A stretch of DNA of 48,895 nt, taken from the NCBI GenBank assembly GCA_018220985.1, contig JAAOXS010000007.1:1-48895 (forward strand), written 5' to 3'. Below, one piece after another: positions 22,206-26,986 of the stretch (the stretch's first letter is position 1; each line of letters begins with the position of its first letter). The notes beneath the pieces are model-generated. The model was not told the DNA's origin, did not search any database, and saw only the letters and a list, made by a program, of their open reading frames with translations. The stretch comes from Nanobdellota archaeon. Lineage in GTDB: Archaea; Nanobdellota; Nanobdellia; PEZQ01. The position numbers and the translations under genes were made by a program.

Positions 22206-22384
22206 GCGGGGATAGCCAAGCGGTCAAAGGCGTTAGGCTCAAGAACAACTCTTTCTTTTTAAAAAGAAAGAATTGGGAGAAGAAAAATTCCATTAATAAT
22301 CTTGAGCGCTGAAACTTTCGGGTTGATGACTTTGAGAAACCTAATCTCTCAGTGAGTTCGCAGGTTCGAATCCTGCTCCCCGCA
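22206..22384 (+). tRNA. tRNA-Leu(CAA) with ~95-nt intron (about 22244-22338) at position 37/38
   Basis: Acceptor GCGGGGA/TCCCCGC+A, D arm GCCAAGCGGTCAAAGGC, anticodon stem TTAGG/CCTAA with loop CTCAAG|A, variable arm TCTCTCAGTGAG, T arm GCAGGTTCGAATCCTGC. Confidence 0.9.
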
Positions 22385-24350: not shown

Positions 24351-24370
24351 GTTTCGAAACATATATAAAT
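24351..24370 (+). promoter_or_regulatory. BRE/TATA promoter of the S-layer gene (palindrome GTTTCGAAAC followed by ATATATAAAT)
   Basis: Purine-rich BRE-like cgaaac directly followed by a strong TATA box; implies a ~120-nt leader before ATG 24518. Confidence 0.75.
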
Positions 24371-24409
24371 TTGCTGATAGTGATTATTAAATAGAAGTAT
24401 TCCACGAAA

Positions 24410-24510
24410 GAGGGGTTCAGGTGCGTTATTTAAGACACTTGAAACGAAATAGGATGCTTTCACATTCATAGTCAATTTTTTAACTCAAACCCCTCCGGAG
24501 AGGTAGGTGA
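24410..24510 (+). promoter_or_regulatory. Structured 5' leader of the S-layer gene with competing pairings and a strong SD (AGGTGA, 24505-24510)
   Basis: GAGGGGTT (24410-24417) complements AACCCCTC (24488-24495); CCTC (24492-24495) also pairs with GAGG (24500-24503) over a CGGA loop beside the SD. Confidence 0.55.
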
Positions 24511-24517
24511 ATAAAAA

Positions 24518-26986
24518 ATGCAAGAAGAATTTAAATTAAAAATAAAAAGAACGGCTAAAAAGTTAGCAGCAGTTGGTACAGGCGCCCTCGTGGCGGGTAT
24601 GACACTAACTGGAGCTGCTTTCGCAGCGGACTTAAGTGGCCTACCAGCACCAATTGTGTCAAGCGGAGCGTTTGATGCATATGTGGTGGTCGGAACAAAC
24701 GCAGCAACAATTGATGTTGCTGGAGCAATTGAATTATCAACTGCTTTCGGGCAGTTGGCAACAACTACAACAGGAGCAGAAGGTCAAGCAACATTGGAAG
24801 TTGAAGTTTTCACAGGTGAGACTTTAGCAGCAATGAACGTGGATAACACTGTTGCTGAACCTTTGTATCACAGTGACGCAAATTGGGAAGGAACAACGTA
24901 CACAGCAGCAAATTCTAATTTGAATATTTTGAATGACGTGGTTTTTTCAGGAACAGATAATGAAGCATACAATGCAACAATTTCGTTAAAAGTAGATGAT
25001 GACTTTGTTGAGATTACAAAAGAGAATTTAGCATTAAGAATTAATGCATCAACAGATAGTGATAATGTTATTGAAATTACATTAACCACTAATAGAACAA
25101 CAACTGCTAAATTCTTGGAAGGAGATAGTATTAATTGGTTTGGAACACTATTTGAAATAGTTGACCTTACTACTGATGGAAACGTTACATTAGGTAATAC
25201 TGAAACAGTAACTGCGTATAAGGATGAGTCTTTCACAATTGGAGGACAAACATTTACATTGAAACAAGTTGCAGATGCAACAGTTGTTATTCTTGATGCG
25301 AATAGTGACATTCAATACATTAACTCAACTTACTCAACAATTGGTACAATACAACTAAAAACTACAGGTATTCAGAATGTTCCAGGTTATGAAAAAGTAA
25401 CTTTTGAAACAATTGAGAGCAGTTTCACTTTTGCTGTAGGAGATGTTTTTCCAGTAAATAGTGGTGCTGACGGATTCATTGTTGATTCAATGACTGTTAA
25501 CATAACAGATCCTAACATTGATTCAGCAATTGTTTTAAGAAACAATGAATCATATACATTAACTAGCAAAACTGATAAAGCAAGTATTATTGCAGGATTA
25601 GAGTTTTCTTACACTGATAACACTGGAAACGCGAACACTCTTAAAACAACCCTTGCAGATGGTGGTACGGGTCAAATTAACATATCAGAAACAAATGGGG
25701 TTACAATAACTTTTGACCCTATTGATGATCCAATCAACACAGAATTGGATATTGTTGGTGATATAGCCTCATTACCAGGAGCTTTGTTTAAAACATATAA
25801 TGCAGGAACTGAGCAATTAACAACAGTAACTGATTTGACAAATACAATGTCAGTCAATATAACAAGTTCAAGTGATGCACTATATATTGTGGATGGGGGA
25901 ACAAGCTATTTTGAAATGAAAATGCTTGGTGTCGGTAACGAGTCAATAACCTGGTATTATCCAGATGTTAATACTAGTATAAGTAGACCAACATCTTGGG
26001 TTCAGTTAGGATATAACATTAACTGGACAACACCTTCAGGTGTCGTTGTAGATACAGCTTTAAACACAACAAGAGTTGCAGCAGTGAGAATTGATATAGA
26101 CGCTAGTACATATTATGGAAGAAATGATGTATCATGGGCAGCAGCTAAGTTCTCTGATTACGGAGCAAAAATTAGTTGGAGTGGTAGTTCAGTTACGGTT
26201 ACAGAACCAAATGGAAACAGTTTAACAGCATTAATTGGTTTTAAAACTAATGATGACGCATATTTCAATGAGAAAGCTTCTCTTAAATATAACAGTGTAA
26301 CACTAACTGCAACAGGAAATACGACTAGTGGAACTTACAAATACCAAACAACGGATTATGATTCATTGATTGGTTTTTGGAGTAATCTAGGAAGTGTAGC
26401 GGGACGATATACAATTAACGGAACTTTCATTGACCAAACAATTGCAATGGTGATTTCACAGAAGGAGTTATCAGTAGGTATTGGTGCAGTAGCTCCTCAA
26501 ACAAAAACATTAGACACGGACGAAACAACTAGCACATATGCAAACAGTCATGTATTTGGTAATACAACAGTTACACTTGTTAGTGGTGCTGGTTCATCAG
26601 TTACTGTTAATAAAGTAACACCAGGATTCGCTAAATTGGACGCTGACATAACTACAACTACATTAGCTAAACCAGTTGTTCTAGTTGGAGGTTCATCAGT
26701 TAACACATTAGTCAAGAACTTAATTGACAATGGTTTGATGAGCTTTACAGACTTGATTGCTCAAGGTGAAGGACACGCGCAAATCGACTTAGTTGAAAAC
26801 GCGTTCAACAGCCAAACCGCACTTGTCATCGCTGGTTACACTGGAACAGATACATTAATGGCTGCAAGAGCAGTTACAGGCGCAATGCTAAATGGACAAC
26901 CATTTGGATTCACAACACACAACGTAACATCTTTGTTATTAAACACTGGAGTTACAGCAGTTAATGACGTAGCAGTAGTTAGTTAA
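24518..26986 (+). CDS. S-layer protein
   Basis: KKLAAVGTGALVAGMTLTGAAFAADLSGLPAPIVSSGAFDAYVVVGTNAATIDVAGAIELSTAF (archaeal S-layer N-domain); C-terminal VENAFNSQTALVIAGYTGTDTLMAARAV; Thr-rich, many NxT/S sequons. Confidence 0.93.
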   Translation: MQEEFKLKIKRTAKKLAAVGTGALVAGMTLTGAAFAADLSGLPAPIVSSGAFDAYVVVGTNAATIDVAGAIELSTAFGQLATTTTGAEGQATLEVEVFTGETLAAMNVDNTVAEPLYHSDANWEGTTYTAANSNLNILNDVVFSGTDNEAYNATISLKVDDDFVEITKENLALRINASTDSDNVIEITLTTNRTTTAKFLEGDSINWFGTLFEIVDLTTDGNVTLGNTETVTAYKDESFTIGGQTFTLKQVADATVVILDANSDIQYINSTYSTIGTIQLKTTGIQNVPGYEKVTFETIESSFTFAVGDVFPVNSGADGFIVDSMTVNITDPNIDSAIVLRNNESYTLTSKTDKASIIAGLEFSYTDNTGNANTLKTTLADGGTGQINISETNGVTITFDPIDDPINTELDIVGDIASLPGALFKTYNAGTEQLTTVTDLTNTMSVNITSSSDALYIVDGGTSYFEMKMLGVGNESITWYYPDVNTSISRPTSWVQLGYNINWTTPSGVVVDTALNTTRVAAVRIDIDASTYYGRNDVSWAAAKFSDYGAKISWSGSSVTVTEPNGNSLTALIGFKTNDDAYFNEKASLKYNSVTLTATGNTTSGTYKYQTTDYDSLIGFWSNLGSVAGRYTINGTFIDQTIAMVISQKELSVGIGAVAPQTKTLDTDETTSTYANSHVFGNTTVTLVSGAGSSVTVNKVTPGFAKLDADITTTTLAKPVVLVGGSSVNTLVKNLIDNGLMSFTDLIAQGEGHAQIDLVENAFNSQTALVIAGYTGTDTLMAARAVTGAMLNGQPFGFTTHNVTSLLLNTGVTAVNDVAVVS

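Follow-up and report, generated by a model that had tools for sequence, protein, structure and literature searches.

Mutually exclusive helices at the ribosome-binding site of an S-layer gene in a Nanobdellota archaeon: a candidate translational switch

The S-layer gene and its promoter

The window, which is the whole stretch of DNA analysed here, covers 48,895 nucleotides of a Nanobdellota archaeon (contig JAAOXS010000007.1 of GenBank assembly GCA_018220985.1, genome G000). It encodes an S-layer protein of 822 amino acids that matches Pfam PF05124 (S_layer_C) with an E value of 2.8e-19, and the gene is single copy in this genome. The comparison set contains one other genome of the same family and order, G001, whose S-layer protein is 41% identical to that of the window. 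The gene and the elements upstream of it are as follows.

24351-24369 (+): BRE/TATA element GTTTCGAAACATATATAAA, with the TATA box at 24361-24369; identical in G001
24388-24395 (+): predicted transcription start region, placed ~25 nt past the TATA box; also the beginning of the conserved block TAGAAGTATT
24394-24402 (+): 5' strand of helix P0, GAAGUAUUC; 9 bp (three of them G-U) with 24452-24460
24410-24417 (+): 5' strand of helix P1, GAGGGGUU (DNA GAGGGGTT), the putative anti-sequestor; 8 bp with 24488-24495; conserved in G001
24416-24443 (+): hairpin P2, UUCAGGUG...CACUUGAA; a different hairpin occupies the same place in G001
24452-24460 (+): 3' strand of P0, GGAUGCUUU; three positions differ from G001, each keeping a standard pair
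24468-24478 (+): conserved block AUAGUCAAUUU, presumably unpaired; 11 nt identical in G001
24488-24495 (+): 3' strand of P1, AACCCCUC (DNA AACCCCTC); overlaps the 5' arm of P3
24489-24508 (+): P3, a hairpin that closes the Shine-Dalgarno (SD) sequence; CCUC 24492-24495 with GAGG 24500-24503, loop CGGA, plus a lower stem
24505-24510 (+): SD sequence AGGUGA (DNA AGGTGA), complementary to the 16S 3' end GGATCACCTCC
24518-26986 (+): S-layer protein gene, ATG at 24518

The BRE/TATA element, a strong one, predicts a start near 24390 and a leader of 125-130 nt, close to the ~120 nt given in a preliminary description of this locus, whose positions for both P1 strands, the GAGG arm, the SD sequence and the start codon are exact. 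That description held that a start downstream of 24417 would speak against its proposal; the promoter lies upstream of this position. The promoter block is identical in G001, whereas the DNA upstream of it and flanking it has diverged. The sequence TTTCGAAA recurs at three other sites in the window, none of which adjoins a comparable TATA box. Positions 24351-24360 form a perfect palindrome, GTTTCGAAAC, that is fused to the TATA box, is identical in G001 and may be more than a BRE, for example a transcription-factor site. The 16S 3' end that matches the SD sequence was located in the same genome as the S-layer gene, and the 16S G+C content is ~53% in both G000 and G001. Since 16S G+C correlates with growth temperature, this value suggests mesophily. 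Elsewhere in the window, 22206-22384 (+) gives an Rfam tRNA match (179 nt, 45.7 bits) that was missed by ARAGORN, and is probably a tRNA gene with a ~100-nt intron.

Competing helices in the leader

P1 and P3 share 24492-24495, so the two stems are mutually exclusive and cannot fully coexist, as the preliminary description had claimed. It overlooked helix P0 and the lower stem of P3, in which ACC (24489-24491) and GGU (24506-24508) pair around a UA bulge, so that part of the SD sequence is covered as well. P0 and P1 are interleaved, and are either alternatives or partners in a pseudoknot, between which nested folding is unable to decide. An 8-bp P1 arises in 27 of 2000 shuffles of the window leader (p ~0.014), and P0 in 51 of 5000 shuffles for the window and 60 of 5000 for G001 (p ~0.01 each). 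The folding energy of the whole leader is ordinary compared with shuffles (z 0.02 and z -0.66), and the window by itself is weak evidence for the long-range stem. Of 35 ribosome-binding regions in the window, that of the S-layer gene ranks in the top three for stability, a noisy comparison since the start codons are unreliable.

The full leader was folded at 37 °C and 75 °C with a nested algorithm, whose energies ignore pseudoknots. At 37 °C the SD-closed fold of the window leader (P0, P2 and P3) has -24.4 kcal/mol versus -23.6 kcal/mol for the fold with P1, so the exclusive helices at the ribosome-binding site are nearly isoenergetic. The corresponding values for G001 are -26.0 and -22.0 kcal/mol. 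The P1 duplex alone contributes -12.9 kcal/mol and P3 -5.4 kcal/mol at 37 °C. At 75 °C P1 is dominant and the SD sequence open in both the window and G001 (P 0.93 and 0.88), but the 16S composition makes the 37 °C picture the more relevant one. With the usual pseudoknot penalty added, a pseudoknot of P0 and P1 could compete with the closed state, according to a rough estimate made outside the folding calculation. The calculated balance of closed and open forms suits a switch without proving one.

Conservation of the long-range stem

The G001 leader retains the promoter block GTTTCGAAACATATATAAATTTGC, the block TAGAAGTATT...CGAA.GAGGGGTT, the block ATAGTCAATTT and a 25-nt identical block, AACCCCTCCGGAGAGGTAGGTGAAT, while the centre of the leader has diverged. 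The arms of P1 are identical to those of the window, and the stem arises in 12 of 2000 shuffles (p ~0.006). P2 is built from unrelated sequences, UUCAGGUG/CACUUGAA in the window versus ACAUCUC-ACUU-GAGGUGU in G001. P0 is formed by GAAGUAUU and AAUACUUC in G001, and the strongest helices of the G001 leader, P1, P2 and P0, coincide with those of the window leader.

The third genome with this stem is Candidatus Jingweiarchaeum tengchongense (Nanobdellota; G005), the only member of its family compared. Its counterpart of P1, AGGGGCUAAUA with UAUUAGCCCCU, has 11 bp and was reached in 0 of 2000 shuffles, and the 3' strand is directly followed by CCUC-CUAG-GAGG and then the SD sequence. Relative to the window, P1 shows one two-sided compensatory change (U-A to C-G) and four extra pairs, where the two leaders are equated by position and the compensatory evidence comes from one lineage comparison. 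The preliminary description had proposed covariation of both stems as a check; the long-range stem does show this compensatory change, and P3 is invariant. Folding favours P1 in G005 with a probability of 0.97. The SD sequence of this leader can also pair with an upstream CGCCAAUU, so P1 alone, or the opening of P3, may not free it there. A clear long-range stem is present in three genomes only, from two families.

The leaders of G008 (L226) and of a Parvarchaeota contig (L173) contain AAAACCUCG, which can pair with CGAGGUUUU (or CGGGGUUUU), a strand that can alternatively pair with the AACCUC arm of their SD hairpin. It is possible that these leaders are a three-strand version of the same competition.

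The SD hairpin in other families

The arrangement CCUC-N4-GAGG before GGTGA is found at the S-layer start in genomes of families f1, f3, f5, f8, f12 and f14, and G008 and L173 carry the form ACCUC-AAAG-GAGGU. When the pattern was scanned over nine genomes, it was present at the S-layer start in eight (G000, G001, G005, G003, G016, G012, G022 and G014), with a single additional match among them, in G022, that is due to chance. The ninth, G024, has a degenerate hairpin, and its single match to the pattern is unrelated. Eight other matches in the class were inspected; most fall within coding sequence or rRNA, an S-layer gene follows none of them, and they look like chance. In the seven leaders measured the hairpin starts 26-28 nt before the start codon while its distance to the TATA box varies widely, which argues for a role in RNA and translation rather than as a DNA operator. 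Across the compared genomes the stems of P3 are invariant and the loops variable, and no covariation was found. Families f3, f12 and f14 have ~35-nt leaders with P3 and without a P1 arm. That P3 does not always need an anti-sequestor is what speaks most strongly against a simple switch.

S-layer leaders across the class

The leaders of about 145 S-layer genes were collected across the class. Compared with the DNA immediately before them, they are more strongly folded (mean z -1.77 vs -0.28, Wilcoxon p 3e-14). In most of them the SD hairpin is of another kind, AACAC-GGAG-GUGUU, whose loop holds the SD core. At least four Watson-Crick pairs are formed in 85% of 88 distinct GGAGGUG leaders versus 29% after shuffling of the 5' arm, and exchange of 5' arms between leaders reached the observed pairing in 0 of 1000 trials. 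The hairpin covaries, in a test uncorrected for sequence kinship. Structure at the ribosome-binding site of the S-layer gene is thus a general theme of the class. In leaders such as L060, L105, L089 and L208 the hairpin, AACAC-GGAG-GUGUU or ACACA-UGGAGG-UGUGU, lies within the last ~20 nt, 2-8 nt before the start codon.

Twelve genomes carry a further RNA motif upstream, of the form P1-[GCUUAAAUU]-P2-[AGCGCAAA]-P1', at these loci.

L154-L165 (G310, G278, G020, G354, G267, G289, G345, G149, G232, G208, G283 and G328): 50-110 nt before the S-layer starts

The motif covaries strongly; its own P1 is 96% paired, and 6-7 of the 8 pairs show changes on both sides. A covariance model of the motif gives 12 matches with E < 1e-3 in 378 genomes, all just upstream of S-layer genes, and the motif has no match in Rfam 15. 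It is a candidate riboswitch-like element. The window leader stands outside this motif, with no model match in G000 and none in L033, and belongs to the same theme. Weaker variants of the motif occur at L198, L221, L065, L181 and L185.

Two other families have leader elements of their own. Members of family f36 (L068, L179, L203, L205, L206, L217 and L219) share, ahead of the S-layer gene, an element that reads roughly CGAAAAG...CUUUUCGGAAUUUUUAUG. Family f13 (L100, L101, L110, L111, L178, L190, L191, L195 and L209) has short leaders with an AGGC...GCCU-type hairpin with varying arms near the predicted 5' end, and a GAGUCCGAGUA-like block between this hairpin and the SD sequence.

Comparison with known systems

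In archaea the L7Ae mRNA has a leader hairpin that bears the SD sequence and is a k-turn; the L7Ae protein binds to this hairpin, through which its own synthesis is controlled (Daume et al. 2017; Huang, Ashraf and Lilley 2019, PMC6298567). This system shares with the window leader an archaeal 5' leader, a short hairpin with the SD sequence, a closed state that hides the SD and translational control, which for the window leader is proposed. Unlike the L7Ae leader, the window leader has no recognised k-turn, and a long-range strand competes for the hairpin. The k-turn consensus has a 3-nt bulge followed by tandem G-A pairs (PMC6298567), while P3 has the 2-nt UA bulge between Watson-Crick pairs.

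Translational riboswitch platforms resemble the window leader in their exclusive SD-closing and SD-freeing helices, an upstream domain, a possible pseudoknot and conserved, presumably unpaired blocks. Both these blocks and the possible P0/P1 pseudoknot are present in two genomes, those of the window and G001. Unlike known riboswitches, the window leader matches no Rfam family and has only two or three sequences of its type. Searches of the window and 20 related loci with Rfam at gathering and permissive thresholds gave only tRNAs and no meaningful sub-threshold match; a microRNA match in the permissive search is on the minus strand and due to chance. The T. kodakarensis fluoride riboswitch is the only natural archaeal riboswitch shown experimentally as of PMC8241225.

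A leader-peptide attenuator was also considered and rejected for lack of conservation: the sole plausible short ORF in the window leader, 16 codons from a GTG, is matched in neither G001 nor G005. Among bacterial S-layer genes, Thermus thermophilus slpA reportedly has a structured untranslated leader on a very abundant mRNA. Another structured leader of such an mRNA is that of Lactobacillus acidophilus slpA, which is discussed in PMC6482533. These leaders differ from that of the window in being bacterial and unrelated in sequence.

The class-wide SD hairpin also invites comparison with the bacterial regulator CsrA. Hairpins bound by CsrA/RsmA at SD sequences have the consensus ACANGGANGU, with GGA in the loop. 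The hairpin ACAC-GGAG-GUGU formally fits this consensus, a resemblance that arises because the SD sequence sits in the hairpin loop. CsrA as the reader of these GGA loops was rejected, as PF02599 was found in 1 of 112 class genomes and is absent from G000, G001 and G005, while the positive controls (E. coli, B. subtilis and T. maritima) were found by the same search. The only CsrA-domain ORFs in the 112 genomes are two adjacent ones in G093 contig 50 (L228 and L229), which were either acquired horizontally or lie on a contaminating contig from a bacterium.

Alternative explanations

The preliminary description offered stabilisation of the mRNA as an alternative to a translational switch. P3, and P1 where present, could be constitutive, shielding a long-lived mRNA at its 5' region or keeping the SD sequence free of other pairings, with the ribosome opening the hairpin and no switching. 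S-layer mRNA is normally abundant, P3 is weak, and the ~35-nt leaders that have P3 without P1 fit a static element well. In bacteria, a stem-loop in the L. acidophilus slpA leader has been proposed to protect the mRNA (discussed in PMC6482533). However, the long-range stem of families f1 and f5 is placed exactly where it destroys P3, P3 covers the SD sequence, which a pure stabiliser has no need to do, and the pairing of P2 and P0 survives sequence turnover. A static leader is doubtful, though it deserves to be taken seriously. It is unlikely that the hairpin is instead gated by a protein that stabilises it and represses translation, possibly the S-layer protein itself in a feedback loop or a general RNA-binding protein. 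The L7Ae leader shows by analogy that a weak SD-containing hairpin can be stabilised by a protein in archaea (PMC6298567), SD hairpins recur at this gene across the class, including short leaders with the hairpin alone, and feedback is plausibly needed for the output of a surface protein. Against this, inspection by eye revealed no k-turn, either in P3 or in other leaders at their internal loop; CsrA is missing from 111 of the 112 genomes, and the hairpin sequences differ widely among families.

An RNA thermometer, in which P3 melts on warming and translation rises, would agree with the calculated closure at 37 °C and opening at 75 °C, but nearly any short hairpin calculates in this way, the 16S composition suggests a mesophile and a thermometer has no need of a long-range strand; this reading is very improbable. 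Still harder to accept is that the complementarity is a chance effect, or a palindrome acting in DNA as an operator. The GC-rich arms pair easily, the fold of the window is unexceptional and CCTCCGGAGG is a perfect DNA palindrome, yet the hairpin is kept at one gene in genomes of six families at a fixed distance from the start codon and a variable one from the TATA box, and the long-range stem has its compensatory change. The fixed distance to the ATG and loops such as AAAG, which break the palindrome, also disfavour a DNA operator.

Proposed mechanism

The explanation we consider best, with a probability of about 0.45, is that P3 acts as an SD sequestor that is opposed by P1 as an anti-sequestor and gated by P0 and P2. 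The leader (24390-24517) would act in cis, as an RNA, to set how strongly the S-layer gene is translated. With the leader closed, P3 would pair ACC with GGU and CCUC with GAGG and hide the SD sequence; with it open, GAGGGGUU would capture AACCCCUC to form P1, dissolve P3 and free AGGUGA. The fold of P0 and P2 may decide if GAGGGGUU is free to pair, as a competitor of P1 or as its partner in a pseudoknot, and a shift in the balance could come from the growth state of the cell or the temperature, or from a metabolite or an RNA-binding protein.

The complementarities, their overlap, their conservation in two or three lineages, their position upstream of the S-layer start and the near-equal calculated energies are observed, and from these we infer that both states form in the cell and alter translation. 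The switch is favoured because three genomes from two families have P1, with the compensatory change in G005, because P2 keeps its pairing despite unrelated sequences and the P0 differences all preserve pairs, and because the 25-nt block AACCCCTCCGGAGAGGTAGGTGAAT is identical at 41% protein identity. The near confinement of the hairpin motif to the S-layer start in the scanned genomes and the covarying SD hairpins before S-layer genes across the class point the same way. The case is weakened in that P1 occurs in three genomes with identical arms in two, P3 lacks covariation and the folding energy is ordinary. The translational switch of the preliminary description thus keeps its SD-open and SD-closed architecture, which is under selection, while the few genomes with a clear P1 and the short-leader relatives that keep P3 without it count against the full proposal.

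Implications for S-layer control in Nanobdellota

In archaea, few natural translational switches that act in cis have been described. A literature text search found no switch for S-layer genes and no paper on DPANN S-layer leaders, most subscription journals being outside its reach, and the words mRNA, leader, UTR and promoter are all absent from an archaeal S-layer review. S-layer genes are probably among the most expressed in these cells, and synthesis of the coat protein is probably tuned at the RNA level. A tentative but possible extension is that the S-layer genes of this Nanobdellota class are under an undescribed RNA-based translational control, in which lineage-specific leaders (the pseudoknot-like bistable type of the window and the riboswitch-like motif of the twelve genomes) feed SD hairpins and match coat synthesis to some signal in the cell. 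Concrete RNAs for probing are the bistable leader of the window, the class's covarying SD hairpin and the uncatalogued structured motif. DPANN genomes are small, and control of the coat protein through its leader would need few dedicated genes.
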